Shown here piece by piece: positions 97 through 23,959 of a stretch of 64,000 nucleotides of DNA. Position 1 is the first letter of the stretch. Every line of letters begins with the position of its first letter. Source of the DNA: Chthoniobacteraceae bacterium (GTDB taxonomy: Bacteria; Verrucomicrobiota; Verrucomicrobiia; Chthoniobacterales; Chthoniobacteraceae); NCBI GenBank assembly GCA_947476045.1, contig CANJNZ010000008.1:1-64000 (forward strand). The letters are read 5' to 3'. The position numbers and the translations under genes were made by a program. Below the pieces are notes generated by a model, which had not been told where the DNA came from, did no database searches, and saw nothing but the letters and a program-made list of their open reading frames with translations.

Positions 97-636
97 TCAG
101 AGAAAAGTTTTTTCCCGCGGACTGCGAACTGCGGAACTTGGGTTAAGATCCGACCAGTCGATCTCGCCATTCTGGATATTCCCCATTCGAAGGCATACGA
201 CCTCTCCGTTGTCTGAAGACTTGAGGGAGCTTCCATACTGAAAGTTGTCGCAGACCTCGGACAACTCCACCATCGGCCAGTCGGGGTGGATGGGGATGTG
301 GGGGCGGTAGTGGTCGAGGACGGCGCGGGCGCCGTTGATGACTTTCTGGTAGCCCTCGATCTCCGCCACGATCTCCTTCTGCACCTCCAGCGGCACAAAC
401 GGGATTTCAAGACGGGCAAAGACTTCTCGTGGCAGGTGCTTGATTCCGGCTCCGGCTGATTGGCTTTCTAGCTGCCCTCTTTCGGCGAACCATTGGAGGA
501 TGTGAACGAAGAAAACCGGCTCGAACGGCACTTTGAAGCGGACGCGATGCAGGGCCTTTTGAAATTTCAAGGCGGGCAGCCGCCCGTCCTCATACGGCAG
601 CCCTACCGGGCTCTCCGCCTTCACACACGAGGACAT
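97..636 (-). pseudogene. hsdS: Type I restriction specificity subunit (HsdS) remnant, frameshifted and truncated
   Basis: This frame continues the specificity part that begins at the end of the upstream hsdM ORF. It reads YEDGRLPALKFQKALHRVRF, the usual stretch after the GDVLVCEGGEPGRAAV motif of HsdS target-recognition domains. A central conserved region follows (LPREVFARLEIPFVPLEVQ, then a helix EIVAEIEGYQKVI). A second recognition domain starts at HPDWPMVELSEV but stops after about 50 residues in unrelated sequence (SSAVRSPREKTFL). HsdS normally has two complete recognition domains of about 150 residues each, so the second is truncated. The ATG at 636 is only the ORF-track start, and the real reading came from the preceding frame. 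DNA target choice by this system is probably lost. Confidence 0.75.
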
Positions 637-2236
637 CGCCAGGCCGCAGACTGAATTTCTCTAGCTCATCATCCTCGAAATACATTTCTGCCAAATCGTG
701 TGTGTCGATCCGGCCCCACTGGACATTCACGTTCCGCAGATAGGGCATCAGCCTGCCGGTGGTGTGCTTGGTTTTGTCGAGCATCTTGCCCAGTTGGATT
801 TCGGCGAGTTCACCCAAAGGCCTCATGGGAAATGAGTGGAGCTCGGCCACGCCCTCCCGATACCGCTCGCCGCTGAGGTTGTAGTCCCCATTGGCGGCGA
901 GCTTTTCTTTCGGCACGACGAGCCCCGTGTCGAATGGGATGTCTGTGATCGGTGGCAGACAATCCATGTCGTGACCCGTCCGCAGGTGGTTCAAATATTC
1001 GGCGAGTTCGGCCTGCACTTGCGGGAGGTCGTTTTTCTCGATGGCGCGGCGTTGGGCACCGAGGCCGAAGCCGTCGGCCTCCGCTTTGAAGAATGCGATG
1101 GTGTCGCTTTGCTTCGCGAGGGACTTGTCGAGAATGAGGATGCTGGTCTTCACCCCGGAGTAGGGATTGAAACAGCCCGCGGGGAGGGAGACGACGGCGA
1201 CGAGGGAGTTTTCGACGAGGAGCTTGCGCAGCTCTTTGTAGGCGGTCTGGCTCTGGAAGATGATGCCCTCGGGGACGATGATGGCGGCGCGTCCGGTGGG
1301 CGTAAGGTGCTCGGCCATGTAGTCCACGAAGAGGACTTCGCTGCGCTTGGCCTGGATGGAGAATCGCTTGTGGGGCTTGATGCCGCCTTTCGGTGACATG
1401 AAGGGCGGGTTGGCGAGGATGACGTCGGCGAATTCGTTCCAGCGCTCCTCGGAAGTGAGGCTGTCGTATTCGTAGATGTGGGGATCGGTGAAGCCGTGGA
1501 GGTAGAGGTTTACCAAGGAGAGGCGCACCATGTCCGGCGAGATGTCGTAGCCTTTGAAGTTTTTGGCGAGGCGGCCTTTTTCGTCGGGGGTGAGGGGTTT
1601 CACCGAGCGGTCCGACCGATTGGACGGATCTGACGGATCGTGCCTGCGCATGATGTGCTTGTAGGCGGAGATGAGGAAGCCGGCGGTGCCGCAGGCGGGG
1701 TCGAGGATCGTCTCGCCTTTCTGCGGGGCGAGGACCTCGACCATGAAATCAATGATGTGGCGCGGGGTGCGGAACTGGCCGGCATCGCCCTGCGAGCCAA
1801 GGACGCTGAGGAGATACTCGAAGGCATCGCCGAGGCGCTCACTGTGGTCGTAGCTGAACTCGTCGATGATCTTGAGGAAGGCCTTGAGCGTCTCGGGGTC
1901 GCGGTAAGGGAGGTAGGCGTTTTTGAAGATGTCGCGGAAGAGCGCGGGGATGCCGGGGTTTTCGGGCATCTTGGAAATGCCCTCGCCATAGAGGCCGAGC
2001 ATCTCGTGTCCGCCGAGGGAAGGGGCCATGAGCTTGGCCCAGCCGTAGCGGGCGTAGTCGCCGGTGAAGAACTTGCGCTTGCCGCCGAGTTCCTCGGCCT
2101 CGGCGTCCATGTCGTCCATGAACTTGTAGATGAGCGCGATGGTGATCTGCTCGACCTGGGATTTGGGGTCGGGGACCTTGCCGACGAGGATGTCGCGGGC
2201 GGTGTCGATGCGGCGTTTGGTGTCGGTGTCTAGCAT
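590..2236 (-). CDS. hsdM: Type I restriction-modification methyltransferase HsdM, fused to the start of HsdS
   Basis: N6-adenine methyltransferase subunit of a type I restriction-modification complex. The start MLDTDTKRRIDTARDIL (ATG at 2236) fits the family; the longer track ORF adds a non-homologous low-complexity leader. An HsdM N-terminal helical domain spans about residues 1-140. The SAM-binding motif DPACGTAGF is at about 179-187 and the catalytic NPPF at about 276-279. From about residue 469 the protein becomes an HsdS recognition domain (FPMRPLGELAEIQLGK to GEPGRAAV), so this is an M-S fusion. A TGA cuts it off exactly where the HsdS reading moves to another frame. A repeat-encoded PSDPSNRSDRS insert lies at about 200-211. 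Methylation would need an intact specificity part. Confidence 0.85.
   Translation of the reverse strand: MLDTDTKRRIDTARDILVGKVPDPKSQVEQITIALIYKFMDDMDAEAEELGGKRKFFTGDYARYGWAKLMAPSLGGHEMLGLYGEGISKMPENPGIPALFRDIFKNAYLPYRDPETLKAFLKIIDEFSYDHSERLGDAFEYLLSVLGSQGDAGQFRTPRHIIDFMVEVLAPQKGETILDPACGTAGFLISAYKHIMRRHDPSDPSNRSDRSVKPLTPDEKGRLAKNFKGYDISPDMVRLSLVNLYLHGFTDPHIYEYDSLTSEERWNEFADVILANPPFMSPKGGIKPHKRFSIQAKRSEVLFVDYMAEHLTPTGRAAIIVPEGIIFQSQTAYKELRKLLVENSLVAVVSLPAGCFNPYSGVKTSILILDKSLAKQSDTIAFFKAEADGFGLGAQRRAIEKNDLPQVQAELAEYLNHLRTGHDMDCLPPITDIPFDTGLVVPKEKLAANGDYNLSGERYREGVAELHSFPMRPLGELAEIQLGKMLDKTKHTTGRLMPYLRNVNVQWGRIDTHDLAEMYFEDDELEKFSLRPGDVLVCEGGEPGRAAV
1609..1644. repeat. 9-nt GATC-type tandem repeat array inside hsdM
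   Basis: Four consecutive 9-nt units: GGTCCGACC, GATTGGACG, GATCTGACG, GATCGTGCC. They encode the PSDPSNRSDRS insert of HsdM, in frame, just after the SAM-binding motif. Confidence 0.7.
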
Positions 2237-2246
2237 GAGTGATGAG

Positions 2247-2291
2247 GATTGGGCGGATCTGGTGGATCGGGCGGATCGGTCAGATCTGGAG
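2247..2291. repeat. 9-nt GATC-type tandem repeat array upstream of hsdM
   Basis: Five 9-nt units: GATTGGGCG, GATCTGGTG, GATCGGGCG, GATCGGTCA, GATCTGGAG. They span the junction between the end of the four-helix gene (stop at 2280-2282) and the hsdM start at 2236. Confidence 0.8.
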
Positions 2292-3041
2292 CGTGCCTTT
2301 GCAGTCGGGGTATTTGGTGCAGCCCCAGAATTGGATACCGGCGTTTTTGCCGGACTTGGCGGTGCGCAGCGCCATGAGGGCACCGCATTGGGGGCAGGTG
2401 GGTGGTTTCTGATCGGGCTGAGCAGACGGATCGGGCTGATCGGGCTGATCTTTTTTCCGCCGGTGGGCTAGGCGGGCGGTGGCGAGCTGCTCGCTGTAGC
2501 CGCCGCCTTCGACGAAGTCCTTCTCCAGTGCGGCAATTTGGCGGTCGAGGAGGAAGTTCGCTTGGTGGATCAGGCAAATGAGGGCGTTGGCGCGGATGGC
2601 GGGGTCGGCGTGGTCGAGCCAGCGGGCGTAGCGAGCGGCGCGCTGCTCATCGGTGAGATCGGACGGATCTGACGGATCGGACTGATCTTTCTGGAACGTG
2701 CGGGGCACGGCACGCACGGCTCTGGCCTCCGGGCAGTCGGGTGTCCACGCTTGGAGGCGGCGGTGGCGGAGGAAGTCTTCGTAGTCGAGGAGCAGTTCTT
2801 CGAGGCTTGCGCGGGCTACATTGAGAAGGCGCAACTCGGTTTGCGAAGAGGTCGCAGAGGCGCGACTGCCCTCAGCGATGTTTTGCCGACCGGAGCGCGC
2901 GGCCTGCACCATCTGGTCCACGGTGCGCGAACGGGGATCGAGGAACTTTTCGCAGAACCAAACCGTGGCGTCGTAGACGAGCGTTGCTGTCTGGAAACTG
3001 GCGGTGTCGCGATAGCCGCCGCTGGGCCGGAGTTTCTTCAT
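2280..3041 (-). CDS. Four-helix-bundle protein with C-terminal topoisomerase-type zinc finger
   Basis: 253 residues. The first ~120 residues match the four-helix-bundle family often found beside mobile or restriction genes (AARSGRQNIAEGSRA, then LRLLNVARASLEELLLDYEDFL). The C-terminus is a four-cysteine topoisomerase-like zinc ribbon (CPQCGALMALR to FWGCTKYPDC). The architecture matches what is called a four helix bundle suffix protein. Between the domains are two repeat-encoded linkers, DQSDPSDPSD and DQPDQPDPSAQPDQ. The start overlaps the hsdR stop by four bases (ATGA) and the gene lies between hsdR and hsdM, so it is co-transcribed with them. Its role in the system is unknown; nucleic-acid binding is inferred from the zinc ribbon. 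Confidence 0.75.
   Translation of the reverse strand: MKKLRPSGGYRDTASFQTATLVYDATVWFCEKFLDPRSRTVDQMVQAARSGRQNIAEGSRASATSSQTELRLLNVARASLEELLLDYEDFLRHRRLQAWTPDCPEARAVRAVPRTFQKDQSDPSDPSDLTDEQRAARYARWLDHADPAIRANALICLIHQANFLLDRQIAALEKDFVEGGGYSEQLATARLAHRRKKDQPDQPDPSAQPDQKPPTCPQCGALMALRTAKSGKNAGIQFWGCTKYPDCKGTLQI
2411..2450. repeat. 9-nt GATC-type tandem repeat array in the four-helix gene (zinc-finger linker)
   Basis: Units GATCGGGCT, GAGCAGACG, GATCGGGCT, GATCGGGCT and a terminal GATC. They encode DQPDQPDPSAQPDQ just before the zinc ribbon and keep the reading frame. Confidence 0.8.
2657..2692. repeat. 9-nt GATC-type tandem repeat array in the four-helix gene (middle linker)
   Basis: Units GATCGGACG, GATCTGACG, GATCGGACT, GATCTTTCT. 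They encode DQSDPSDPSD between the four-helix domain and the following helical segment. Confidence 0.8.
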
Positions 3042-5578
3042 GCGGCGAATTGGTTCAGGGAGACGTAGTCCTTGATGTATTCAGGGATGAGCGTGCGGTA
3101 TTTCGCGGGGACGGCTTTGAAGTCCTTCGTCGAGAAAACGGGGTTTGTGGCGAGGTCGGTGAGGTGACCCGACTCGATGATGTGCCGGATGGCGTCGCTG
3201 GTGGCGTAGGCCTTGAAGTAGGTCTTGATTGCGGAGATGGCCCCGGCCTCGTCGGGCTTGTAGTCGGCGACGAACTTGGAGAACTCCTCTTCGAGCAGGT
3301 CGTCCTTGGATTTGAAGCGCGGGATGAGGCCGAAAATCTTTTCGAGAATCTCGCGGAGAGTGAGGCGGCGATCTACGCCAGCGGCTTTCCGCAGCTTGTC
3401 GAGGGAGTAGAATTCGGACGGCTTGTCGAAAACTTCCTTGTTCACGTAGTCGATGACGCGGTCCCACTGGCCCGCCTCGACGCTGGCTGCGATGAAGTCG
3501 TTCTCGCGCACCCGCTCCTCAAACTTGTCGTAGAACATGCGGTCGATCTTCATGCCCTGCTCGCCGATGACCTCCACTTTCATCGTATCAATAATGTCGT
3601 CGCCCGTGTGGTCGTAGGTGCCGCCCGTGACAACTGGACCCTCGCCGCCGCCTTCACCGCCTTCCCCGCCTTCGGCTTTTAGTTTCGGGAGCTTGCGGAC
3701 TTCGTCGTATTTGAACTCCTTCTCGAAGTATTCGCAGTTGGCGAAAAAGTCGAAGAGCTTGAAGGAGGTCTTCTTCGGTTCTTTGACGCTCTCGCGGATC
3801 GTTTCGTCGAAGAGTTGCTCGCGGAAGTCGTGCTTCCGGGTGCCGCGGCCTTTGATCTGGATGAAGTCTGTGGGTGAAAAGATGGGGCGGAAGAGGCCGA
3901 GGTTCAGGAGGTCCGGGCAATCGTAGCCGGTGGTCATCATGCCGACGGTGACGCAGACGCGGGCTTTGCTGGTCTTGTAGGTGGGGATGAAATTGGCAGA
4001 GCCGAGCAGGTTGTTGTTGGTGAAATTGATGGTGTGCTGCTGGGCACCGTCCACCTGCGAGGTCACCTGCACGGCAAAGTCGGATTGGTATTTGCCGGGG
4101 AACATCCGGTCAGCCATCTCGTTGAAAATCTGCGCGAGCTTGCCTGCGTGATGCTGGCTTACAGCGAAGACGATGGACTTCCCAATCTCGCCGCTGACGG
4201 GGTCGCGCTGGGCATTTTCGAGAAAGGTTTTGCAGAAGAGCTGATTGGTGGCCTTGGAGAAGAAGCGCTTTTCAAACTGGCGCTGCTTGAAGGCCTCGTC
4301 GTGGTCGTCGCCTTCGTCGTCCTTGAACGAGACCACGAAACCCGAATCAGAAAGGAGCTGCGTGGTGACCGTGCTGCGGGCATCCACGACGGTGGGATTG
4401 ATGAGGAAGCCATCCTTCACGCCATCGAGCAGGGAGTAGCGGAAGGTGGGCTGGCCGTCGTCGCAGCCGAAGGTGCGGTAGGTGTCGAGCATGAGGCGGC
4501 GCTCGAACTCGCGCGGGTCTTTGGTGGTCGGCTTGTCTTTGTCGAACTTCTTGAGGTAGTCGAACGGCGTGGCGGTGAGGCCGAGTTTGTAGCCGATGAA
4601 GTAGTCGAACACGGCGCGGGCATTGCCGCCGATGGAGCGGTGCGCTTCGTCGGAGATGACGAGGTCGAAATCGGTGGGCGAAAAGAGCTGCTGGTATTTG
4701 TTGTTGAAGAGGAGCGACTGGACGGTGGTGACGACGACCTCAGCGTGACGCCAGTCGTCGCGATTCTCTTTGTAGATGACGCTCTTGTAGTCGTTCGCGA
4801 GGACCTTCTTGAAAGCCTTGAGCGCCTGGTCTTCGAGTTCCAGCCGGTCCACGAGGAAGAGGACGCGCCGGGCGTTGCCGGTGCGGAGGAAGAGCTTGAT
4901 GATGGCAGCGGCGGTAAGCGTCTTGCCCGTGCCGGTGGCCATTTCGAGGAGGAAGCGGTCGCCCCCTTTCTTCACGGTCTGCTGGATGGCGAAGATGGCT
5001 TTCTTTTGATACGCGCGGAGGAATCGCAGGCCGTTCACCTCGATGAAGCGGGCGCGTTCGCCTTCGTTCTTCCATGCGGCTTCCGTGGCGTAGCTCGGGC
5101 GCTGGGTGAGCACCACGTAGTCATCACCGACGACTTCCTCGATGAGGCGCTTGGGGTCTGGCGTGGTCTTCTGGTAGCCGGTGACGGAGGTCGGCGAGGG
5201 GAATGCCGTGATGACATACGGGTTGCCGCGTTCGAGGTCCCAGAAGTAATGCAGGTTACCGTTCGAGAGGATGACGAAGCGGCAATTCTGCGATTTGGCG
5301 TATTTGCGCGCCTGCTCCTTGCCGACGAGCGGGTTTTTGTCCTCGGCCTTGGCTTCAAGGACAATGAACGGGAAACTTTTTTCGTTGAGCAGCAGGAAGT
5401 CGATGAAGCCCTTGCTAGGCTTCTCGAAATTCTCACCGAGCGCGTCGAGGTCTTGCGTTTTCACCGTGACGCTGGGCTCAAGCTGGATGTTCGCCGGGCC
5501 TTTCGCGTCCGCGAAGAAGCGCCAACCAGCGTCTTCCAGCAGCTTGTTGATTTTGATGCGGGCGGCGGCTTCTTTCAT
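3038..5578 (-). CDS. hsdR: Type I restriction endonuclease/translocase subunit HsdR
   Basis: Restriction and DNA-translocation subunit, 846 residues from the ATG at 5578 (MKEAAARIKINKLLEDAGW); the track ORF start further upstream gives a non-homologous leader. The N-terminal nuclease domain has the PD-(D/E)XK pattern D60...E75-A-K77. Helicase motifs follow: Walker A MATGTGKT at about 213-220, DEAH at about 310-313 and an RGTRK motif in the second RecA lobe. The C-terminal region resembles the EcoEI-type HsdR C-terminal domain. Its length and motif set look intact. It is the first gene of the minus-strand RM operon. Cleavage activity requires the M and S subunits, and S is broken here, so HsdR is probably idle. 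Confidence 0.9.
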   Translation of the reverse strand: MKEAAARIKINKLLEDAGWRFFADAKGPANIQLEPSVTVKTQDLDALGENFEKPSKGFIDFLLLNEKSFPFIVLEAKAEDKNPLVGKEQARKYAKSQNCRFVILSNGNLHYFWDLERGNPYVITAFPSPTSVTGYQKTTPDPKRLIEEVVGDDYVVLTQRPSYATEAAWKNEGERARFIEVNGLRFLRAYQKKAIFAIQQTVKKGGDRFLLEMATGTGKTLTAAAIIKLFLRTGNARRVLFLVDRLELEDQALKAFKKVLANDYKSVIYKENRDDWRHAEVVVTTVQSLLFNNKYQQLFSPTDFDLVISDEAHRSIGGNARAVFDYFIGYKLGLTATPFDYLKKFDKDKPTTKDPREFERRLMLDTYRTFGCDDGQPTFRYSLLDGVKDGFLINPTVVDARSTVTTQLLSDSGFVVSFKDDEGDDHDEAFKQRQFEKRFFSKATNQLFCKTFLENAQRDPVSGEIGKSIVFAVSQHHAGKLAQIFNEMADRMFPGKYQSDFAVQVTSQVDGAQQHTINFTNNNLLGSANFIPTYKTSKARVCVTVGMMTTGYDCPDLLNLGLFRPIFSPTDFIQIKGRGTRKHDFREQLFDETIRESVKEPKKTSFKLFDFFANCEYFEKEFKYDEVRKLPKLKAEGGEGGEGGGEGPVVTGGTYDHTGDDIIDTMKVEVIGEQGMKIDRMFYDKFEERVRENDFIAASVEAGQWDRVIDYVNKEVFDKPSEFYSLDKLRKAAGVDRRLTLREILEKIFGLIPRFKSKDDLLEEEFSKFVADYKPDEAGAISAIKTYFKAYATSDAIRHIIESGHLTDLATNPVFSTKDFKAVPAKYRTLIPEYIKDYVSLNQFAA

Positions 5579-5770
5579 GCGGCGAGGGCGAGGACGCCGC
5601 GTTTGGCGTCGGTGGCTTTGCTTTTCGCGAGGAACCAGAGGCGAGGGAAAGTCGAATTGGAGAAGCAGGAAAGTTTCATCGAGCGAGCAGGAACGAGCAG
5701 AGCGGACGTTGAACGCGAGCGAGAAACCACGAAAGCGCGGGGAGGGCAAGAAGCGAAGCGTGCTTCGCTA

Positions 5771-6086: not shown

Positions 6087-6114
6087 ACAGGCAAGGCAGC
6101 GCCCGATTTACCAG

Positions 6115-6150
6115 AGCCCGCTCCCGCAAAGGAGCGGGCTTTGTGTTTCT
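6115..6150 (+). terminator. Rho-independent-type terminator hairpin
   Basis: Perfect 10-bp stem AGCCCGCTCC (6115-6124) and GGAGCGGGCT (6131-6140), loop CGCAAA, followed by TTGTGTTTCT. It sits just after the gene remnant and isolates the respiratory operon from upstream transcription. Confidence 0.8.
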
Positions 6151-6210: not shown

Positions 6211-6228
6211 TTGTGAAATTTTTCACAA
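6211..6228. promoter_or_regulatory. Rex-type redox operator (TTGTGAA-N4-TTCACAA)
   Basis: The 18-bp sequence TTGTGAAATTTTTCACAA is a perfect palindrome with arms TTGTGAA and TTCACAA around ATTT. It matches the known consensus of the NADH-sensing repressor Rex. It lies 110 bases upstream of actA, the first gene of the respiratory operon, and after the preceding terminator. A weak promoter candidate (TTGCAT at 6234 and a TAAATC-like -10 at 6258) starts just downstream, so a bound repressor could block it. The match is seen directly; binding by Rex and repression are inferred. No rex gene is in the window. Confidence 0.75.
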
Positions 6229-6338
6229 AGTCCTTGCATGGTTGGAAAGTTTTTTGGTAAATCGCAATTCTCCTTGCAAAAATTGCGTGTCCAAACCGCT
6301 TTGAAGATCGCCTTTCTCCACTTTCTGACCTGACGAAT

Positions 6339-7013
6339 ATGCCGCAGATATTTCCGCGCGGGGCGAATTTCGTCCCACTGAAAATCATACTCGTGCTTGC
6401 CACGCTCGGCATCGCTGCGCCTGCGGCGATGTGGTATTACTGGACGCCGAAATACACGAAGGTCGGCTATCAGCCCGCTCAGCCGATTCCATTTTCCCAC
6501 AAGGTGCACGCCGGGCAGCTCGGTCTGGACTGCCGCTATTGCCACAGCTTCGTGGAGACTGCGGCGCACTCGAATATCCCGGCGGCGCAAGTCTGCATGA
6601 ACTGCCACTCGCAGGTGCAGAAGGATAATCCGAAACTCGCGCCGCTGCGTGAGGCTTGGGCGACTGGCAAGCCGGTGGAGTGGGTGCAGATTCACAAGAC
6701 GCCGGATCACGCTTATTTCAATCACTCGGTGCACATCAACCGCGGCGTTTCGTGCGTGAGTTGCCACGGTCGCGTGGATCAAATGGATGTGGTGGTCCAG
6801 GATCAGTCGCTCTCCATGGACTGGTGCCTCACCTGCCACCGTGCGCCGGAGAATGCGCTACGTCCTTTGGATAAAGTGACGGACCTCGGCTGGCACGCGA
6901 CGCCGAAGGGCAAGGAATCAATCGAGCAGGCTCAGGAAAATCTGGGCAAAGAACTCCAAAAACAGCGGGGAGTAAATCCGCCTGTAAGCAATTGCGCTGG
7001 TTGTCACCGATGA
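6339..7013 (+). CDS. actA: Alternative complex III subunit A, pentaheme cytochrome c
   Basis: Electron-transfer subunit of ACIII, the quinol:cytochrome c oxidoreductase that replaces the bc1 complex. 224 residues with one N-terminal membrane anchor (about 13-33) and five CXXCH heme sites: CRYCH 65, CMNCH 86, CVSCH 139, CLTCH 163 and CAGCH near the C-terminus. This equals the heme count of ActA proteins. The heme domain faces the periplasm. It is the first gene of the operon, behind the Rex-like site, and its TGA overlaps the actB ATG (ATGA), indicating tight coupling. Confidence 0.9.
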   Translation: MPQIFPRGANFVPLKIILVLATLGIAAPAAMWYYWTPKYTKVGYQPAQPIPFSHKVHAGQLGLDCRYCHSFVETAAHSNIPAAQVCMNCHSQVQKDNPKLAPLREAWATGKPVEWVQIHKTPDHAYFNHSVHINRGVSCVSCHGRVDQMDVVVQDQSLSMDWCLTCHRAPENALRPLDKVTDLGWHATPKGKESIEQAQENLGKELQKQRGVNPPVSNCAGCHR

Positions 7014-10000
7014 GCAAACACGTTTTCCAACATCCGCAGGAGAAGGGCGATGGCCCGAAGTATTGGCGTAGCCTTGGTCAGTTGGCGGAGACGCCGGACT
7101 TCCAGAACTGGAAGGACAAGGAGTTTCAGACCGGTGCGTCTGAGCTGAACCCCGAAGTGGGTCGCCGGAGCTTTTTGAAATACATGGCTGCGAGTTCGGC
7201 GCTGGCGGGTCTTTCGCTGAGTGCCTGCCGCCGCGAGGAGAAGACGCTGGTGCCTTTCACGAAGGGCGTGGAGTGGAGTGTTCCCGGTAAGCCGGTTTTC
7301 TATGCAACGTCGCGTCCGCATCGCCGTGGGGCGCATCCGCTGGTGGCGGTGACGCATGATGGTCGTCCGACGAAGGTAGAGGGCAATCCGAATCACGCAG
7401 CGAGCAAGGGTGCGACCGATATTCAGAGCCAGGCATCGCTGCTCGATTTGTATGACCCGGATCGCTCGCGTCGCTTCCAGCACGATGGCGTCGAGGCGAA
7501 GGAAGAAGATTTTACGAAGTGGCTTGGCGAAGTAATCGCGAAGGCTGGTGATGGTGCAGGAATCGCGTTTCTCTCGGAGCATTTCATGTCGCCGTCATTC
7601 GGGCGATTGAAGGGTGTTGTTTCGGAAAAGCTGCCTAATGCAATCTGGGCGACCTACGAACCACTCGGCGGAAGTGAAGCGCGCAAGGCGTGTGAGGCGA
7701 GCTTTGGCGAAGGAATGCGCGCAGTGCCGCAACTCGACAAGGCGGACGTGATTCTCGCGCTCGACAGCGATTTCCTCGGTTTCGATGAGGGACGACTCGA
7801 AGGCATCCGTGCATTTTCAAAGCGCCGCTCGCCGGAGCAGAAGATGAACCGCCTTTACGTCGTGGAGAATCGCTACACGACCACCGGTGGCATGGCTGAC
7901 CATCGCTTGCGTGTGCAGGCGAAGATGGTGGCCAATGTAACGCGCCAACTCGCTGAAATCATCGCGGGCAAGACCAATGACGAAGGGCTGAAGTCGCTCG
8001 TTGCGAAGTTCCCGAAGACGTCTGCATTCACCGGCACTCAGGAGAAGTGGATCGCGGAGACCGCTGAAGATTTGATGGCGAACAAGGCCAAGTCCGTCGT
8101 TCTCGTCGGCTATCGTCAGCCCGCGCAAGTGCAGGCGCTCGGCCACGCAATCAACGCAGCGCTCGGCAATCTCGGCGAGACCGTTGTCGGACGGAAGAGT
8201 ATGCATGGCAAGTTAGCCAGCATCGGTGAGTTGGCGAAAGCCATCGGCGAGAAAACGGTGAAGACGCTGTTCATCCTCGGCGGCAATCCAGTTTACAACG
8301 CGCCTGCGGATTTGAATTTTGGCGACTTGGTCAAAGGGATCGAAGTCGTGCGTCACGGTTTCTATGAAGACGAAACGACCTATTCGTTCGACGAAAAAGG
8401 CGCGCGTCATTTCGTGAAATGGCACGTTCCTGCTGCGCACTATCTCGAAGCATGGGGCGATGGTCGCGCGAGCGATGGCAGCTACGTTTCGCAGCAGCCG
8501 ATGATTCTTCCGCTCTTCGGTGGTTGGTCGGAAATCCAGCTCCTCAATTTCATCGCCACGGGCAAGAAGAGCGACGGCCTCGATCTCGTGCAGGATACTT
8601 TCAAAGAAGTCGCCAAGGGAATTGACACGGAGTCGTGGGCGAAATTCCTCCACGACGGATTCCTCGCGGCCAGCGCAGCGCAGGCTGAGACTCTCAGCTT
8701 CAATGCGACGAATGCGGCGGATTTGGTGGCCAGCTACAAAGCTCCTGCAGACGGCTACGAAGTGGTTTTTGCGCCATGCGCAAAAGTGGACGACGGCCGC
8801 TATTCGAACAACGCATGGCTGCAAGAGTTGCCTGATCCGATCACGAAAGTCACGTGGGACAACGCCGCACTCATCAGCCCGGCGACCGCCAAGAAGCTCG
8901 GAATGGAAGCCAAGCTGGGCAATGGTCACTTTGATTTCGACAATGGCACTTGGATCACCATCGAGGTGAACAAGGCAAAGCTGGAAATTCCCGTCTATAT
9001 CGCGCCGGGACATGCCGACGATAGCATTACCATCGCACTCGGTTACGGTCACACGCACGAAGGTCGCGTGGGCGGACGCGAGGGGAACTACATGTCGCAC
9101 GGTGGACTGTTCGCGAAGAAGAGTCAGGTCGGCTTCAATGCCTATCCGCTGCGCACGAGCGAGGCTCACTACATCGCCGGTGGGGCGGAAGTGAAAAAGC
9201 TGTCGAAGAGCGCCTATCAGCTCGCAATCACGCAGGAGCACGGCGCACTCGAAGGACGCGGCGCGGATGTCATTCGCGAGGCGACTGCCGAGACATACGC
9301 CGACGAAAAAGACTTTGCGCGCGACGAGCACTGGCTACACAAGCATCACGCGATGGACGCGGAAGCCGAGGAGCGCGACCGCAACAAATATCCCGTTTCG
9401 CGCAGCGCGTATTCACATCCCGAACTGAACGACAAGAATCATCAGTGGGCGATGGCGATTGATCTTTCGACATGCCTCGGCTGCTCCGCGTGCATGGTCG
9501 CCTGCCAGAGCGAAAACAACATTCCCGTTGTCGGCAAAGAGCAGGTGATTGATGGCCGCGAACTCCACTGGATTCGCATGGATCGCTATTTCGTCAGCAC
9601 GATGAACTCGCGCGACAAGGATGTGAGCATTGACGAGCCGCGCATGGTGAACCAGCCGATGCCCTGCCAGCATTGTGAAAACGCCCCGTGCGAAACGGTC
9701 TGCCCCGTGAATGCGACCGTCCACAGCGATGACGGCCTCAACGTGATGGCTTACAACCGCTGCATCGGCACGCGTTACTGCGCGAATAACTGCCCGTTCA
9801 AGGTGCGTCGCTTCAACTTCTTCGACTTCAACGAGCGCCAGAAAGACAAGTATTTTGTCCCGAATATCATCAACGAAAAAGGCATGGCCGACACGTTGAA
9901 GATGTCGAAAAACCCGAACGTCACCGTTCGTATGCGCGGCGTCATGGAAAAATGCACTTTCTGCGTGCAGCGCGTGCAGGAGGCGAAAATCGCATCCAAG

Positions 10001-10300
10001 GTGCGTGCGAAGGACACCGACAAAGTCCAGGTGCCGACCGACAGCTTCCAGGTCGCCTGTCAGCAGGTCTGCCCGACAGACGCCATCGTCTTCGGCAACC
10101 TCAACGACAAGAACAGCCGCATGTCAAAAATCCGCGGCACCGAAGGAAACGTTGCACATCCACGCGACTACCGCCTCTTTGACTACATCGGCATCAAGCC
10201 GCGCGTGAGCTACCTCGCTCGCGTGATGAACCCAAATCACAAAATGCCTGACGTTCCCAAAGACTGGGCAGGTGCCCATAAAGAAGGAGGGCACGCCTAA
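7010..10300 (+). CDS. actB: Alternative complex III subunit B, molybdopterin-oxidoreductase-like and iron-sulfur fusion
   Basis: 1096 residues; the start [10 protein letters not shown] (ATG 7010, overlapping the actA stop) is preferred over the GTG/TTG-type start at 6992. A twin-arginine-like segment [12 protein letters not shown] sits at about 51-62 after a leader, as in TAT-variant-translocated family members. Residues of about 100-760 form the molybdopterin-oxidoreductase-like B1 part, which in ACIII carries no molybdenum. The C-terminal third is the ferredoxin-like B2 part with four cysteine motifs ([40 protein letters not shown]...CQQVC). Periplasmic or peripheral, it links the ActA hemes to the quinol-reacting membrane subunits. 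Stop and the next start overlap (TAATG). Confidence 0.92.
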
Positions 10301-11769
10301 TGGCTGACATCGCACACACATCAAAGGGCGACGAATGCGAAGTAGTCCTGCACTGCCCGCCGGAACTGAAAAAGATTCCGTTGGTCAATCATGACCGCTC
10401 CTTCGCTTGGATTACCGAAAACGTCGCGAGCATCTGCGAGGAAAAGACACGCCGATATTGGTGGATCGCATTCTTTCCTCTCGCACTGATCGCACTGCTA
10501 GTTCCGACTTTGCTTTCCTATCAGGTCGCAAACGGCGTTGGCGTCTGGGGTGAAAACCAGCCGTTTGGCTGGGCTTGGGACATCACGAATTTCGTTTTCT
10601 GGATCGGCATCGGCCATGCCGGAACTCTGATTTCGGCGATCCTTTTTCTCACCCGGCAAAAGTGGCGCACTTCGATCAATCGCGCGGCTGAAGCCATGAC
10701 GCTTTTTGCCGTGATGTGCGCCGCGCTCTATCCGGGCTTCCATGTCGGTCGTTTTTGGAAGGCGTGGTATCTGTTCCCGATTCCGAACCACATGGCGCTT
10801 TGGCAAAACTATCGCTCGCCACTGCTGTGGGACGTGTTCGCTGTTTCGACCTATTTCACGGTGTCGGTGCTGTTCTGGTATGTAGGCCTCATTCCCGACC
10901 TCGCCACGCTCCGTGACCGCGCAAAATCGAAAATCAAGCAATGGGGCTACGGCCTTGCGGCACTCGGCTGGCGCGGTGGCAACCGCCACTGGCAGCACTA
11001 TGAGATGGCGTATTTGATTCTCGCCGGTCTCAGCACGCCGCTCGTGTTGTCCGTTCACTCCATCGTCTCCTTCGACTTCGCAACTTCGGTCATCCCCGGA
11101 TGGCACACCACGATTTTCCCCCCGTATTTCGTCGCGGGTGCAATCTTCGGCGGCTTCGCCATGGTGCTCACGCTCATGCTACCGGCGCGGCTTTTCTATC
11201 CGCAACTTGATGACATGATCACGCGGAACCATGTGGACAAGATGGCCAAGATCATCCTGCTCACTGGCAGCATCGTCGGCTACGCCTACCTCATGGAGTT
11301 GTTCGTGGCGCTCGTTTACTCGGGCAATTTCTACGAATACAACGCGTTCTACAATCGTGCGACGGGATGGTATTCATGGCACTACGCAATGATGATGTTC
11401 TGCAACGTCATTGCTCCGCAGGTTTTCTGGTCCAAGAGAATCCGCCACAATTACATTTGCGTATTTTTCATCTGCCAACTCGTGAACGCGGGTATGTGGT
11501 ATGAGCGTTTTGTGATTATCGGCACCACGCTGGCGCAGGACTTCCTGCCTTCCTCGTGGGGACACTACACGCCGTCGTGGGTGGAGGTATTCACCTTCAT
11601 CGGCACGTTCGGGATGTTCATATCGCTCTTCCTCTTGTTCATGCGTTTCCTTCCGATGATTACCATCTTCGAAGTCAAAGCGGTGAAGCCCGAGGCCGAC
11701 CCGCATCACGAACCTGATCATTCGCACGGCGAAAAATCCGCGCACCCGAAGGAGGCGGCTGTTCACTAG
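10300..11769 (+). CDS. actC: Alternative complex III subunit C, NrfD/PsrC-like membrane protein
   Basis: 489 residues with about ten predicted transmembrane helices and the polysulfide-reductase NrfD family pattern (for example [21 protein letters not shown] and [12 protein letters not shown]). In ACIII this subunit carries the quinol site and is a candidate proton path. A soluble N-terminus of about 60 residues and a His-rich C-terminal tail ([11 protein letters not shown]) are cytoplasmic. A good ribosome binding site, AGAAGGAGG, lies inside the end of actB. The paralogue actF lies three genes downstream. Confidence 0.92.
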
Positions 11770-11771
11770 TC

Positions 11772-12338
11772 ATGGCTGAATCTTTCAAACGTCTTCATGC
11801 AATCGGTGCGGAGTTCGACACGACTTCCGCCATCTACCACGCTGCGGAGAAAGTCCGTGACGCCGGTTACACCAATTGGGATTGCCACACGCCATTCCCC
11901 GTTCACGGGATGGACAAGGCGATGGGCATGAAAAAATCATGGCTCAGCGCGTTCGTCTTTGCCTGCGGCCTCACGGGTTTCATCACCGGGCTTTTGCTCG
12001 TCACCGTCACTTCGTTCGGGCTTTACCCGACCATCGTGAACGGCAAACCGAACGACTGGACTCATGGTGCCGGAGCGATGCAGTTCTTCTTCCCGGTCAT
12101 GTATGAGTTGACGATTTTGTTCAGCGCTTTCGGAGCGGTCTTCGGCATGATCATTCGCAACGGCCTTCCGAAATTCCATCATCCGCTCTTTAACTGGAGC
12201 CGCTTCGCCAAAGCCACGGACGACAAATTCTTCATTATCATCGAGAGCAGCGACCCCATGTTCTCGGAGACGAAAACCAAGGCTTTCCTCGACAGCCTTG
12301 GCGGCAAACACATCACACCTGTCTTCGACCACGAGTAA
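11772..12338 (+). CDS. actD: Alternative complex III subunit D (DUF3341 family)
   Basis: 188 residues with two central transmembrane helices (about 57-80 and 105-130), flanked by a soluble N-terminal domain containing NWDCHTPFPVHGMDKAMG, a motif typical of DUF3341/ActD. An AAGGAGG site lies about ten bases before the start. ActD is a structural membrane subunit of ACIII with no cofactor. It lies between actC and actE as in other ACIII operons. Confidence 0.9.
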   Translation: MAESFKRLHAIGAEFDTTSAIYHAAEKVRDAGYTNWDCHTPFPVHGMDKAMGMKKSWLSAFVFACGLTGFITGLLLVTVTSFGLYPTIVNGKPNDWTHGAGAMQFFFPVMYELTILFSAFGAVFGMIIRNGLPKFHHPLFNWSRFAKATDDKFFIIIESSDPMFSETKTKAFLDSLGGKHITPVFDHE

Positions 12339-12341
12339 GCC

Positions 12342-13028
12342 ATGATGAAAATTTCATTCGGAGCTTTGACTATCGTAGGCGTTCTCGCCCTTGGTTTCGC
12401 GGGCTTTCGCGGCGCTAAGACGGAATTGACCCACGTTGAGTGGTTCAACGACATGGCGCATCAGCCAAAGGAACAACCGCAGCACCACAGCACGTTCTTT
12501 AGCGACGGGCGTTCTGCCCGCCAGCCTGTGGCTGGAACGGTGCCGATTGGTTTCAATTTGGAAGGCCGCTATTTTCAGAGCGAGGGAAACAATCTGGTGG
12601 ATGGCCACGGTGGCTTTGCAAACCAACCCGACTATTTCAACACGGGGCGCATGGGCGATGTGTATGGCGACGGGATTCCCGAAGTTCTCGCAAAACGCGG
12701 AGCCGAGTTGCTCAGCCGTGGCCAGGAGCGCTACGATATCAGTTGCGCAATATGCCATGGAAAAGCAGGGCAGGGGAACGGTCCGGTCAAGGCGTTTGGC
12801 TTGATGACTATTCGCGCACTCACCGACGAGCCTCTCCGTGCGCAGTCGGATGGACAAATTTTCAACACCATCACCCACGGCAAAAGCACGATGGGTGCAT
12901 ACGGGCCTGTGATTGCCGTCGAGGATCGTTGGGCGATTGTTGCCTACGTCCGTGCACTGCAAAAAGTGGCCGAGGGAAAACTCGCAGCCGTTGCTGCCGA
13001 AACCAAACCTGCTGAAGCGAAGAAATGA
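12342..13028 (+). CDS. actE: Alternative complex III subunit E, monoheme cytochrome c
   Basis: 228 residues with an N-terminal membrane anchor or signal (about 1-22) and one heme site, CAICHGKAGQGNGP, in a class I cytochrome c fold. A distal methionine could come from the KSTMGAYGP segment. In ACIII, ActE is the membrane-anchored monoheme subunit likely to hand electrons to downstream acceptors. It ends in an Ala/Lys-rich tail and overlaps actF by four bases (ATGA). Confidence 0.88.
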   Translation: MMKISFGALTIVGVLALGFAGFRGAKTELTHVEWFNDMAHQPKEQPQHHSTFFSDGRSARQPVAGTVPIGFNLEGRYFQSEGNNLVDGHGGFANQPDYFNTGRMGDVYGDGIPEVLAKRGAELLSRGQERYDISCAICHGKAGQGNGPVKAFGLMTIRALTDEPLRAQSDGQIFNTITHGKSTMGAYGPVIAVEDRWAIVAYVRALQKVAEGKLAAVAAETKPAEAKK

Positions 13029-14221
13029 GCGACCACCATCACATTCCACAGGCGGAAAAATTTGACGCCAAGAAGGGCGCAAAGCTCAAGGGCTTGTTCC
13101 TTGGTGCAGCAGGCGTTGGACTTGTCGGGGCGGGTGCAACTTTTGTCATGAGCCCAACGCTTGGTGCTCACGCCTGGCTGTTTGCATTCTTCTATTTCTT
13201 CACCGTGCTGGTCGGTTGCTTCTTCTGGAACTGCCTGCATCACGCCACGGATTCCGAGTGGTCGGTCGTCGTGCGCCGTCAGATCGAAAATCTCGCCTCG
13301 CTTCTCAAATACATCGGTGTGTTTTTCATCCCGATCGCGCTTTGCACAACGATTCTTTACGCGTGGTTCACAGCTGACCCGAAGACAGACATCCTTCTCG
13401 CGGGGACCAAGAGCGCCTATCTGAACAAACCGTTTTTCTGGGCGCGTGCGCTCGCGTTTTTCGGCCTGCTTTTCCTCCTGCCAAATATCCTGCGTAAACG
13501 CAGCATGGCGCAGGACAAGGACGGTGCCGCATCACATACCTTTACGATGCGTAAAGCGGCGATTGCCGGAATTCCCACGCTCGCAATCTGCCTCACCTTT
13601 GCTGGTATTGACTGGCTGAAGGCGCTCAATCACCACTGGTATTCCACCATGTGGGGCGTGTATCTTTTCGCCGGCGCGGCGGGTGCCTCGATGGCGCTGA
13701 TCGTTCTGACCTGTAAATGGCTCCAGAGTCAGGGCTATCTGAAGCCAGTCACCGAGGAGCACTATCATTTGATGGGCAAATTTCTCTTCGCCTTCACGGT
13801 GTTCTGGGCCTACATCGGCTTCTCGCAATACATGCTCATCACCTACGCGAACATTGATGAGGAAACGATTTACTTCCGCGTTCGCAACACCGGCAGTTGG
13901 AACTATCTCAGCATGTTCCTCGTTTTTGGACGCTTCTTCTTCATGTTCGTCCCGCTCCTTTTCCAAGGGCTGAAAAAATCACGTGGCATCATCTTCTGTG
14001 CGTCGTGGATTCTGTTCATGCAGTTCGTCGATTTGTTCATCATCATCATGCCCGAGGTTAGTCCCAATGGATTCTCCTTCGCTGGTTTGATTGCCACGAT
14101 ATTCCCATGGCTCGGTATCGCCGGTTGCCTCGGCCTGCTTTTCCTCAAACACCTCGGTCAAGCCTGCGTCTTCCCGACTAAGGATCCGCGTCTCGCCGAA
14201 TCGCTCAAATTTACGAACTGA
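13025..14221 (+). CDS. actF: Alternative complex III subunit F, NrfD-like membrane protein
   Basis: 398 residues, about ten transmembrane helices, related to ActC. Conserved ActF-like stretches include FFYFFTVLVGCFFWNCLHHA and FWAYIGFSQYMLITYANIDEET. It is a membrane-embedded ACIII subunit thought to take part in quinol binding or proton handling. It is the last recognisable ACIII gene in the canonical order A-B-C-D-E-F. Only one base separates its stop from the next start. Confidence 0.9.
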   Translation: MSDHHHIPQAEKFDAKKGAKLKGLFLGAAGVGLVGAGATFVMSPTLGAHAWLFAFFYFFTVLVGCFFWNCLHHATDSEWSVVVRRQIENLASLLKYIGVFFIPIALCTTILYAWFTADPKTDILLAGTKSAYLNKPFFWARALAFFGLLFLLPNILRKRSMAQDKDGAASHTFTMRKAAIAGIPTLAICLTFAGIDWLKALNHHWYSTMWGVYLFAGAAGASMALIVLTCKWLQSQGYLKPVTEEHYHLMGKFLFAFTVFWAYIGFSQYMLITYANIDEETIYFRVRNTGSWNYLSMFLVFGRFFFMFVPLLFQGLKKSRGIIFCASWILFMQFVDLFIIIMPEVSPNGFSFAGLIATIFPWLGIAGCLGLLFLKHLGQACVFPTKDPRLAESLKFTN

Positions 14222-14913: not shown

Positions 14914-16491
14914 ATGACCACGACACAACATACATTACTTTCCACCTCGCTCGGCACGGCAGCGCCATCGAAGCAGCCCACGAAGCCTGCTGCATCTGCA
15001 CCGTCGCCAGCGAAATCAGCAGCGCCACAGCAGGTCACACAGCGCGACATCGAAAACGTCGAGCGCGCGCTCATTGATCAATCCGCGCGCGGCCCAGTGC
15101 TCACATTTTTCACGACCGGTATTTTCTGGCTGCTCGTTTCCGTGGTGCTCGGCTTCATCGCTTCGAAAAAACTACACGTTCCCGAGTATCACAGCTCACA
15201 CAGTTGGATGACCTACGGGCGTGTCTGGCCCGCCTACACGACAGCGCTCATCTACGGCTGGTGCTCGCTTGCTGGCATGGGCGTTGCAACCTGGCTCATC
15301 GGGCGTCTGACTCGCGTGGCCATCCAAGCACCGGGAATCTTGCAATGGGGCGCATGGTTCTGGAATGCCGGTGTAGCAGCAGGGGTGATTACGATTCTAG
15401 GCGGCTACAACTCCGGGCTGGAATATTTTGAAATGCATCCCGCCGCGAAGCTGTGCATGTTCATCGGCTTCCTGCTCATCGGAGTCTGGGGCTTGATTTT
15501 ATTCCGCTACAAACGCACGGCGGCTCCTTACATCTCAGTTTCCTATCTTGTTGCGGCATTCCTTTTGTTCCCGCTCTTCTTCGGAAGTGCGGCGGCGCTC
15601 GGCTCAAACACATCAATGACCGGCGTGATGAAAAATGTCGTCAATGCTTGGTATCAGGGCGGACTTTTCAATCTGTGGTTCGGCTGCATCGGCATCGCGG
15701 CGGCGTATTACTTCATCCCGAAAGTCATCAACCGCCCCGTGTATAGCTACAATCTGGCGAACATCGGTTTCTGGTCGTGGGTGTTTCTCGGCGGACTAAC
15801 CGCGATGACCAAACTCAGCGGCGGTCCAGTTCCTGCCTACTTGGTGACCATCAGCGTCGCCGCAAGCATCCTTCTCATCATCCCGATCGTAACGCTTACG
15901 ACCAACTTTGTTCGCACTATGAAGGGACACACCGCAAACATGGCGTATTCGCCGACGCTTCGTTTTGTTTTTGTCGGCACGATTTTCTTCAGCATCGCTG
16001 CTTCGCTCAACGTTCTCTCCGCGCTGCGCTCGGTGGATAGCTACACGCATTTCACACCGTGGGCGCACGGGCAGGTTCACGCGATGGTGCTCGGCTTCTT
16101 CAGCATGGTGATGTTTGGAGCCATCTATTACATCACGCCGCGTCTTGTGGGTTGCGAGTGGTTGTCACGCACGTTCATCAAACTGCACTTCCTCGGCACG
16201 GCTTACGGTGGCGCAACGATTATCGCGCTCTTCCTCATCAGTGGCGTCTTCATGGGCTTCACGCTGAACGAGCCTGCTGCGGTAGAGCAGCCATCAGGCA
16301 CTGCTATATGGAATTTCTTCAACGTTCCGCAGAACGCAGGCTTTTGTAACGCGGTGAAAACCTACATCGGCTATTTCTTCTTCGGCATTGCTCAGTTCAT
16401 CTTCGCAATTCACTTCCTTTTCATGCGTCTGCGCATCGGCCAGCCTGCTGGTGAGCCGACGCTCTTTGCAAACCCAGGGGAGGCTCACTAA
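14914..16491 (+). CDS. CcoN-like (cbb3 oxidase subunit I) protein lacking most metal and heme ligands
   Basis: 525 residues: an Ala/Pro-rich cytoplasmic leader of about 45 residues, then about twelve transmembrane helices. Homology to cbb3 subunit I is clear from YYFIPKVINRPVYSYNLANIGFW and from WAHGQVHAMVLGF near the heme site. Aligned by eye to canonical CcoN, the CuB histidine of WYGHN is replaced (WYQGG), the His-His pair of GPHHLHY is absent (TAMTKLSGG), the heme b3 ligand His is Gln (GQVH instead of GHVH), and the N-terminal low-spin heme ligand is Tyr (WPAYTTA instead of RPLHTNA). Only the other low-spin His remains. It cannot reduce oxygen in the known way. It abuts a CcoO-like gene with no gap. 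Confidence 0.8.
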   Translation: MTTTQHTLLSTSLGTAAPSKQPTKPAASAPSPAKSAAPQQVTQRDIENVERALIDQSARGPVLTFFTTGIFWLLVSVVLGFIASKKLHVPEYHSSHSWMTYGRVWPAYTTALIYGWCSLAGMGVATWLIGRLTRVAIQAPGILQWGAWFWNAGVAAGVITILGGYNSGLEYFEMHPAAKLCMFIGFLLIGVWGLILFRYKRTAAPYISVSYLVAAFLLFPLFFGSAAALGSNTSMTGVMKNVVNAWYQGGLFNLWFGCIGIAAAYYFIPKVINRPVYSYNLANIGFWSWVFLGGLTAMTKLSGGPVPAYLVTISVAASILLIIPIVTLTTNFVRTMKGHTANMAYSPTLRFVFVGTIFFSIAASLNVLSALRSVDSYTHFTPWAHGQVHAMVLGFFSMVMFGAIYYITPRLVGCEWLSRTFIKLHFLGTAYGGATIIALFLISGVFMGFTLNEPAAVEQPSGTAIWNFFNVPQNAGFCNAVKTYIGYFFFGIAQFIFAIHFLFMRLRIGQPAGEPTLFANPGEAH

Positions 16492-17178
16492 ATGGAAAAA
16501 CAGAGCACACTTTTCACCGGAATCTTCGGAGCATTCATCTTCTCTTGCGGAGCGATGGTGCTGCTGCCCAGTAGCCAAATCGGCGCGCTGCAACCTCAGG
16601 TCACATGGGACGAGGGACAAAACTCTCCGAGCGATGTGTATCCCGTTAAACTAGAAAACGCACTCGGTCATCGCCCCGGTCAGGCCGTGTATGTGGAGAA
16701 CGGATGCTTTTACTGCCACACGCAGCAAGTGCGCGACCCGCAGTATGGCCCCGATATGGAGCGGGGATGGGGCGTTCGCCGCACCGTTGCGCGTGATCAC
16801 ATTTTCCAAAGCGTGCCGCTTCTTGGTAGCACGCGTCTCGGTCCCGACTTGACGAATTTCGGCTCCGGCACTTGGCGAAATGAAGCAGCAGATGACAAAA
16901 AAGCTCCTGCCAAACGTGATGCGGCTTGGATTTACAAGCATCTCTACGCGCCCAAGAGCAACTTTTCTGATTCTAACTGCCCGCCCTATCCCTACCTCTT
17001 CGAGCGTAAGGACGTCGGTGGGCAACCCTCGCCCGATGCTGTTGCAGTCGAAGGTAATCACCAGATTGTGCCGACGGCAGACGCGCGAAATCTCGCCAAA
17101 TATCTCCTCTCGCTGAACAGCAGCCACGAATTGAAGGAATCGCCAACGGTTATCAAACCCAAGGAGGCAAAGAAATGA
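16492..17178 (+). CDS. CcoO-like monoheme cytochrome c
   Basis: 228 residues with an N-terminal membrane anchor (about 8-26) and one heme site NGCFYCHTQQVR, followed by GPDLTNFG, the pattern of cbb3 subunit II (CcoO/FixO). In canonical CcoO the axial Met lies in a VPESxMPxYPWL motif; here the matching region reads SNCPPYPYLF, so Met seems replaced by Cys. The start codon follows the CcoN-like stop directly and the stop overlaps the next gene, giving a CcoN-CcoO-CcoP-like order. It is periplasmic and would carry electrons near the degenerate CcoN-like subunit. Confidence 0.82.
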   Translation: MEKQSTLFTGIFGAFIFSCGAMVLLPSSQIGALQPQVTWDEGQNSPSDVYPVKLENALGHRPGQAVYVENGCFYCHTQQVRDPQYGPDMERGWGVRRTVARDHIFQSVPLLGSTRLGPDLTNFGSGTWRNEAADDKKAPAKRDAAWIYKHLYAPKSNFSDSNCPPYPYLFERKDVGGQPSPDAVAVEGNHQIVPTADARNLAKYLLSLNSSHELKESPTVIKPKEAKK

Positions 17179-18395
17179 GCCAGCCGAACGAAGGACAAAA
17201 TCGTCTCGATTATCAGGAGACAGCGGACATCACCGAAGTCCACGCCAGCATACTGCGCGAACATGCAGAGCCCATTGCGGATTCCATGCCGATCCCTACA
17301 TGGCTCGGCGTGCTTTGTGCAGGTGTGCTTTGCTGGGCGGGAGTATATATCGGGGTGTTCCATGGTGGGTTTAGTTCCAAGATTTACAACGAATACGAGA
17401 GCGGCCCGGCGGCGTTTTTCCCGATACCTGGAGGTCAGCAGAAGGGTGGGGGAGAGACACCCGAGTTGCCTCTACTCGCTTACGGCGAGAAAGTTTACGG
17501 CAACCGCTGCGTCGCCTGCCATCAGGCGAGCGGTTTGGGCGGCAATGGCGTCCCTCCGCTCGACGGTTCGGAATGGGTGGATGGAGCAGAGTATGGCGAG
17601 AAGCGTATCGTCGCTTTGATTCTCAAGGGATTGCAGGGACCCGTGTCCGTGAAAGGCGCGACTTACAATGGACTCATGCCGAACTGGGATGGGCTGAAAG
17701 ATCGCGAAATCGCGGGCGTGATTACCTACATCCGTCAGGCTTGGGGCAACAAAGGCACTGGCGAGTTTACTGAAGCGCAAGTCAAGGCTGCGAAGAAAGA
17801 ATTCATGTCGCAGGCTGCCGCTTGGAAGGTCGAGCAAATCAAAAACATCCCGATCGATGCCAAGCTCGACGGTGGTTCTCCTGCCAAGGCAGATGCACCG
17901 AAAGATGCAGCGCCGGCAGCAGGTGCTCCAAAAGCAGACACCGCGAAGGACGCAGAGACCGCCCCCAGCGCTGGTTCGTATAATCTCAGTGCTTCAATCG
18001 CCGCTGGGAAAACCGTCTATCTGCAAAGCTGCATGGCTTGTCATCAAGCGACCGGCATGGGAGTGCCCGGAGCATTTCCTCCGCTGGGCGGCACTGAATA
18101 CGTGAACGGCGATCAGCGCCGCCTCGTGGCAATCGTGCTCAAGGGTATTCAGGGGGCAATCAAAGTGAACGGCACCGTTTACGCCACCGGGATGCCTAAT
18201 CCGGAACTCACTTTCCCGATTCTTAAAGACGACAAGAACGTTGCAGACGTGCTTAACTACGTGCGCAACAACTTCACCAACAAAAACGACGCCCCGATCA
18301 CACCGGAGTTTGTCGGCAAAGTCCGCAAGGAATTCGCTGATCACGCCGCGCAGTGGACGGAGCAGGAACTTCTCAATTTTCCGCCAGCCAAGTAA
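17175..18395 (+). CDS. Diheme cytochrome c, CcoP-like
   Basis: 406 residues: a cytoplasmic N-terminus, one transmembrane helix (about 43-62), then two class I cytochrome c domains with CVACHQ and CMACHQ heme sites and possible Met ligands in GLMPNW and TGMPNP. They are joined by an Ala/Pro/Lys/Asp-rich linker (about 228-265). This layout matches CcoP with one anchor. A near-ideal AAGGAGG precedes the ATG. The second domain is strikingly similar to the next gene, indicating a recent duplication. It is probably the electron relay between ACIII and the A-type oxidase. Confidence 0.82.
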   Translation: MSQPNEGQNRLDYQETADITEVHASILREHAEPIADSMPIPTWLGVLCAGVLCWAGVYIGVFHGGFSSKIYNEYESGPAAFFPIPGGQQKGGGETPELPLLAYGEKVYGNRCVACHQASGLGGNGVPPLDGSEWVDGAEYGEKRIVALILKGLQGPVSVKGATYNGLMPNWDGLKDREIAGVITYIRQAWGNKGTGEFTEAQVKAAKKEFMSQAAAWKVEQIKNIPIDAKLDGGSPAKADAPKDAAPAAGAPKADTAKDAETAPSAGSYNLSASIAAGKTVYLQSCMACHQATGMGVPGAFPPLGGTEYVNGDQRRLVAIVLKGIQGAIKVNGTVYATGMPNPELTFPILKDDKNVADVLNYVRNNFTNKNDAPITPEFVGKVRKEFADHAAQWTEQELLNFPPAK

Positions 18396-18413
18396 CGATA
18401 GACATTGCATGCC

Positions 18414-18899
18414 ATGAAATACATCGCACTCATCCTCGCATCACTCACCGCCGCCTCATTTGCAGAAGACATTAAAGCGTCAGCAGACCGTGGCAAAATG
18501 GTCTATATGCAAAGCTGCATGGCCTGTCATCAACTCACCGGGGCAGGTATTCCCGGAGCATTTCCACCGCTCGTCAAAACTGAATACGCGATTGGCGATG
18601 CACGCCGTGTTGTGGCTATCACGCTGAAGGGAATTTCAGGCGCTATCACTGTGGAAGGCAAAGTCTATGCGACTGGTATGCCGCAGCCGGATCTCACCTT
18701 CCCGATTCTCAAGGAAGACAAAAACGTTGCAGATGTGTTAAACTACGTGCGCACCAGTTTCGGCAATGATGTCAAAGAAGCCATCACGCCTGAGTTTGTT
18801 GCTGAAGTGCGCAAAGAATTTGCAGAACGCAAAACCCAGTGGACGGAGGCCGAGTTGAAGGCATTTCCCGCCAAAGCAGCCGCCACTGAAGCAAAGTAA
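18414..18899 (+). CDS. Secreted monoheme cytochrome c, duplicate of the preceding domain
   Basis: 161 residues from the ATG at 18414 (MKYIALILAS); the track start at 18405 uses TTG. A cleavable signal peptide ends near SFAED. A single class I heme site CMACHQLTG is followed by PGAFPPL and TGMPQPDLTFPILKEDKNVAD. The same blocks appear, almost word for word, in the C-terminal domain of the preceding diheme protein. As a soluble periplasmic cytochrome it could shuttle electrons to the oxidase encoded next. It lies 18 bases after the diheme gene. Confidence 0.82.
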   Translation: MKYIALILASLTAASFAEDIKASADRGKMVYMQSCMACHQLTGAGIPGAFPPLVKTEYAIGDARRVVAITLKGISGAITVEGKVYATGMPQPDLTFPILKEDKNVADVLNYVRTSFGNDVKEAITPEFVAEVRKEFAERKTQWTEAELKAFPAKAAATEAK

Positions 18900-18953
18900 A
18901 CTTTTAGTGCGCCAAAAGACCGGCGCGAATTGATTAAGAATATACAAAACTTT

Positions 18954-20900: not shown

Positions 20901-20918
20901 AGAGACATCATTTAGAAC

Positions 20919-22100: not shown

Positions 22101-22102
22101 CC

Positions 22103-22531: not shown

Positions 22532-22537
22532 ACCACC

Positions 22538-23816: not shown

Positions 23817-23824
23817 CACCACCA

Positions 23825-23891
23825 AGCTCTGCGTCTTTTTTCAGTGAAACAGAGCTGCGCTCCGTTTGAGCGCTTAGCTTTATCATAAAGC
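23825..23891. other. Hairpins between the oxidase genes and ctaA
   Basis: AGCTCTG (23825-23831) pairs with CAGAGCT (23850-23856), and GCTTTAT-C-ATAAAGC (23877-23891) is a near-perfect palindrome. Together they may attenuate transcription or mark a new promoter before ctaA; there is no clear T-tract. Confidence 0.35.
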
Positions 23892-23959
23892 GTCATTTTA
23901 TGAATGACCAAACAACTGCCTTCCCGTGAGGATTTCGGCAGCTAAAGTCCGCAACTTCT

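Follow-up and report, generated by a model that had tools for sequence, protein, structure and literature searches.

The window, by which we mean the whole 64,000-nt stretch of DNA analysed here, carries a long run of respiratory genes on the plus strand. The first gene is actA (6339-7013), encoding the multihaem cytochrome c subunit of Alternative Complex III (ACIII), as recognised by its CxxCH motifs. It is followed by actB for the Fe-S subunit (7013-10300, Pfam 4Fe-4S domains) and by actC (NrfD), actD (PF11821), actE (cytochrome c) and actF (10300-14221), the last one assigned by position and length only. Further downstream, profile matches identified a cbb3-like oxidase subunit I (COX1), FixO and c-type cytochromes (14914-18899). 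The next section (18930-26610) encodes an aa3-type oxidase, for which COX1 was assigned by profile and the subunit III/IV-like and II-like genes by their translations. Translations were also the basis for placing haem A and haem O synthase-like genes (ctaA, ctaB) and a Sco-like gene within this section, all on the plus strand. Judging from the gene order, the 20-kb run starting at actA would form one transcript. The minus strand holds genes at 97-5749 whose translations resemble the specificity, methylase and helicase-like subunits of a type I restriction-modification system, and these point away from the act operon. A terminator-like hairpin on the plus strand (6112-6143), based on a consensus scan only, parts the operon promoter from the upstream sequence.

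Between this hairpin and actA lies the palindrome TTGTGAAATTTTTCACAA (6211-6228, no strand assigned), 110 bp ahead of the actA start at 6339. An earlier note on this DNA had described it as an exact copy of the Rex operator pattern TTGTGAA-N4-TTCACAA and as the only one noticed in the gaps between genes, and both points were borne out: all 14 fixed positions on the two arms agree (14/14, 0 mismatches), and the palindrome is the single match at 0-2 mismatches in the entire window. The next two matches have 3 mismatches, which is chance level. PMC5355995 and PMC5317091 give the Rex consensus as TTGTGAANNNNTTCACAA, with which the palindrome also agrees perfectly. Based on base composition, 0.00008 perfect matches are expected per window and about 0.005 per genome, compared to four perfect copies in the 4.37 Mb of the source genome. 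A reversed control pattern gave no match in the source genome and none across 97 genomes. Between genes, a lone 18-bp palindrome can occur randomly, and it might then be a chance match or a structural DNA feature that serves no regulator. We regard the probability of this explanation as practically negligible, given the excess over expectation, the empty reversed control, the location of all four copies at functionally linked promoters and the invariance of the palindrome in relatives with diverged flanks.

The earlier note had also proposed looking for other predicted Rex sites in the genome, and three more perfect ones were found. They are located before a small lipoprotein-like gene and the complex I cluster (C18:6627; nuoEF fusion, G, H, I, J, K, L), before the F-type ATP synthase (atp) operon (C51:3124) and at the beginning of the gene for a polyprenyl diphosphate synthase, responsible for the quinone side chain (C15:3658). 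Together with the site at actA, they span electron entry, quinone supply, quinol-to-oxygen transfer and ATP synthesis. Weak sites with mismatches were located by pattern matching only; the majority of the two-mismatch sites in the source genome fall within reading frames, a pattern expected of chance matches. Two others appear intergenic (C11:42960 and C40:17257) but lack oxidative-phosphorylation genes nearby, and we treated them as chance matches. A search for NuoD in the source genome found none, although relatives have NuoD; this is probably due to an assembly gap, which could possibly hide a fifth Rex site. The mqnE gene of the source genome has no site upstream, in contrast to mqnE in six other genomes.

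The reading as a Rex operator had been tied in the earlier note to the presence of a rex homologue and to conservation of the palindrome upstream of actA in relatives. We identified one copy of rex in the source genome (C58:7360; PF06971, E 6.5e-17). Its product exceeds the NCBIfam Rex cut-offs NF003995, NF003992 and NF003993 and consists of an N-terminal winged-helix domain (PF06971) and an NAD(H)-binding Rossmann domain. It resembles the PDB entries 2vt2 (1e-38) and 3ikt (1e-37), the latter aligned over residues 17-215. The redox-switch and helix-turn-helix residues Arg16, Lys47, Ala94, Tyr98 and Asp188 of Thermus aquaticus Rex (T-Rex; PMC6125430, PMC8063818) correspond to R30, K61, A108, Y112 and D204, so that all five are conserved. 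Autoregulation of rex is common, yet not universal, in Rex regulons. Near the source-genome rex, no site at up to 3 mismatches was found, except for one located 4 kb off within a coding frame; this differs from the rex-hem genes of Streptomyces, which are autoregulated (PMC5355995). In a genome of another class, the sole perfect site (G150:C11:308351-308368) is located about 50 bp before rex itself, which suggests autoregulation in that organism.

Conservation at actA was likewise found. In the home family, the perfect palindrome is present upstream of actA in 14 of the 15 actA-bearing genomes; in one genome with rex (G032), actA has no site. An alignment of 13 family actA upstream regions revealed that the palindrome is invariant save for the central four bases, whereas the flanks are hardly alignable between genera, except for a CTTG just downstream of the palindrome. 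Extending the comparison to 80 named-record actA loci (up to 600 bp upstream), 30 have the site, either perfect (27) or with one mismatch (3). Because none has two mismatches and just one has three, the actA site appears to be either intact or absent. Together with the rex gene, the conservation at actA supports 6211-6228 as a predicted Rex operator.

To what extent site and rex occur together was determined in 97 genomes of the order: both are present in 35 and neither in 53, with nine discordant cases (3 with rex only, 6 with sites only; Fisher p 9e-17, a value inflated by relatedness). The association recurs inside the families f6 and f13, with exceptions: G006 (f6) has one site and no rex, G059 and G078 (f13) have sites without a rex match, and G090 (f13) shows the reverse. 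In two genomes of family f5 (G014 and G038), rex is present and the genome has no perfect site; a shifted operator sequence or weaker sites are possible in these cases. Perfect sites were rare in a phylum-wide sample, occurring in 9 of 135 genomes, and the regulon therefore belongs to parts of the class and not to the whole phylum. The rex-like genes of other classes are mostly found in genomes without perfect sites.

The same distribution bears on the main rival by motif, namely that a regulator of the CRP/FNR family uses the palindrome instead of Rex. The CRP core consensus is TGTGA-N6-TCACA, and the palindrome holds it exactly. Nevertheless, we consider such a regulator very unlikely. PF13545, the Crp-type HTH, has no match in the source genome (G000; E 1e-3) and is also missing in G056, G076, G032, G061, G066, G080 and G092, all of which have perfect sites. 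Conversely, many PF13545-bearing genomes are devoid of the site, the presence of which tracks rex. The central four bases of the sites, mostly starting with A and ending with T (TTGTGAAA-NN-TTTCACAA), are also near the Staphylococcus aureus Rex consensus. As PF13545 is missing in the source genome, membership in a CRP/FNR regulon was set aside.

To learn about the putative targets of Rex, the genes behind the sites were annotated, which resulted in 83 perfect sites in 27 genomes among the matches listed. The home-family sample contributes all of its 55 sites, a further nine genomes of the order contribute 20, and the remaining eight belong to G159, which is an outgroup within the same class. 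Every one of the 83 precedes atp, nuo, actA, polyprenyl synthase, mqnE or, once, cydA. The mqnE product is aminofutalosine synthase of the menaquinone pathway and was above the NCBIfam cut-off in the three tested. In G159 (L265-L271), the nuo genes are scattered, and a separate perfect site precedes each of the fragments with nuoB (followed by nuoC), nuoD, nuoF, nuoG and nuoH, which means that the operator tracks nuo genes even after operon break-up. Two of the eight matches in this genome are at contig ends and look like one site counted twice. With several NADH-linked energy operons bearing the site, and with site and rex co-occurring, the gene set has the make-up of a Rex regulon.

A scan of the window with the sigma-70 consensus gave no promoter, and the predicted promoter emerged only from a comparison of 60 act/atp/nuo sites. 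Here, a TTG is located 5-7 bases past the palindrome in 52 sites, in contrast to a mean of 2.8 and a maximum of 7 in the control (200 draws). CTTG occurs at offset 4-7 in 54 of the 60 and was read as CTTGC, marking the predicted -35 box. An alignment of 54 promoters revealed a second information peak 23-28 bases past the TTG, with a consensus of about TTTAAT and a 17-base spacer, which is the predicted -10 box. Both boxes are weak at act/atp/nuo, with TTGC as the -35 element. On the plus strand of the window, they correspond to TTGCAT (6234-6239), 5 bp past the operator, and to GTAAAT (6257-6262), a weak match after a 17-bp spacer. The predicted operator is thereby placed in the promoter region of energy genes, with conserved -35/-10-like boxes just downstream. 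Transcription of act would start near 6269, which puts the operator centre near -50.

The polyprenyl synthase promoters are arranged the other way round: a TTGAC box and a -10 box are located upstream of the palindrome, which includes the likely GTG start codon. At these loci, a TTGAC-N17-(-10) promoter stops about 7 bases before the palindrome, and in the source genome (L006:3658-3675, on C15) and at seven other polyprenyl synthase loci the likely GTG is within TTGTGAAAAGTTTCACAA, reading VKSFTK. The mRNA may thus be leaderless and its start codon covered by the operator. In some genomes mqnE resembles this layout, the palindrome covering the start region. The operator thus occurs in two layouts: it either precedes the -35 box or covers the start. 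At many other Verrucomicrobiota loci, the palindrome is located 20-50 bp before actA.

Taken together, it is highly probable, as far as motif, gene context and conservation can tell, that the palindrome is a Rex operator and that Rex represses the ACIII-oxidase operon until NADH relieves the repression. At a low NADH/NAD+ ratio, a Rex dimer would occupy the palindrome, abutting the -35 box on its upstream side, and repress the 20-kb operon for ACIII and its oxidases. Rex footprints are 23-29 bases long in PMC5355995; one of this length centred at -50 would extend to the -35 box, which could keep RNA polymerase out. Rising NADH, for example when respiration is too slow, would be taken up by Rex, which would then release the DNA and allow transcription of the act operon together with the complex I, ATP synthase and quinone-synthesis operons carrying the same operator. 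One redox sensor would in this way probably set the level of the whole oxidative phosphorylation chain. Rex binding, repression instead of activation, NADH as the signal and the genes as one transcript are what we infer in this scheme.

The promoter geometry could also be taken to mean that Rex is an activator: Rex carrying NAD+ would sit upstream of a weak -35 box and aid RNA polymerase, so that the chain would be on at low NADH. This idea is consistent with a centre near -50 and with the narrow range of distances between operator and -35 box (5-7 bp in 52 of the 60 sites), a constraint that a simple roadblock would not need. It also agrees with the weak act/atp/nuo boxes; at polyprenyl synthase, by contrast, the promoter has a TTGAC box and the operator is downstream of the -10 box. 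On the other side, the studied Rex proteins in PMC5355995 and PMC8063818 act as repressors, and an operator over the start region (polyprenyl synthase, mqnE) or 20-50 bp before actA in many loci suits repression. We therefore judge activation improbable. A wider proposal, in which one Rex of Verrucomicrobiota sets nearly the whole aerobic chain from a fixed spot upstream of the -35 box at act/atp/nuo, possibly by activating, seems rather doubtful.

For complex I, ATP synthase and cytochrome bd, control by Rex has been published in Streptomyces: in S. avermitilis/S. coelicolor, Rex controls nuoA-N, atpIBEFHAGDC and cydABCD, and NADH weakens its binding (PMC5355995, accessible part). The same operator consensus and the complex I, ATP synthase and cyd targets are shared with the system described here. 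In contrast to the perfect sites found here, the Streptomyces sites given in that part have 1-3 mismatches, and it names no ACIII or quinone genes among the targets, both of which are predicted targets in our analysis. The S. avermitilis footprints it reports, -50 to -22 for atpI and -42 to -16 for nuoA1, cover the -35 to -10 region; compared with these, the operator described here is shifted upstream by roughly half a footprint or more. Since its centre is near -50, upstream of the -35 box, the repression mechanism would not simply be that of S. avermitilis. Staphylococcus aureus and Bacillus share the Rex protein family, and the S. aureus operator is quoted as TTGTGAAWWWWTTCACAA in PMC5355995; according to the same text, the S. 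aureus targets are largely fermentation and nitrate respiration, unlike the aerobic chain predicted here. Caldithrix abyssi, of another Gram-negative phylum, has a predicted Rex site and ACIII in its genome, but this site has two mismatches, is located before rex-hydrogenase genes and is unlinked to ACIII (PMC5317091).

A literature text search, with most subscription journals outside its range, found no paper tying Rex to ACIII and no report of Rex control in Verrucomicrobiota. The predicted regulon is a direct hypothesis for how these bacteria match respiratory capacity to NADH. In Chthoniobacter flavus Ellin428 (L177), a cultured species in which this hypothesis can be tested, actA has the same perfect site.
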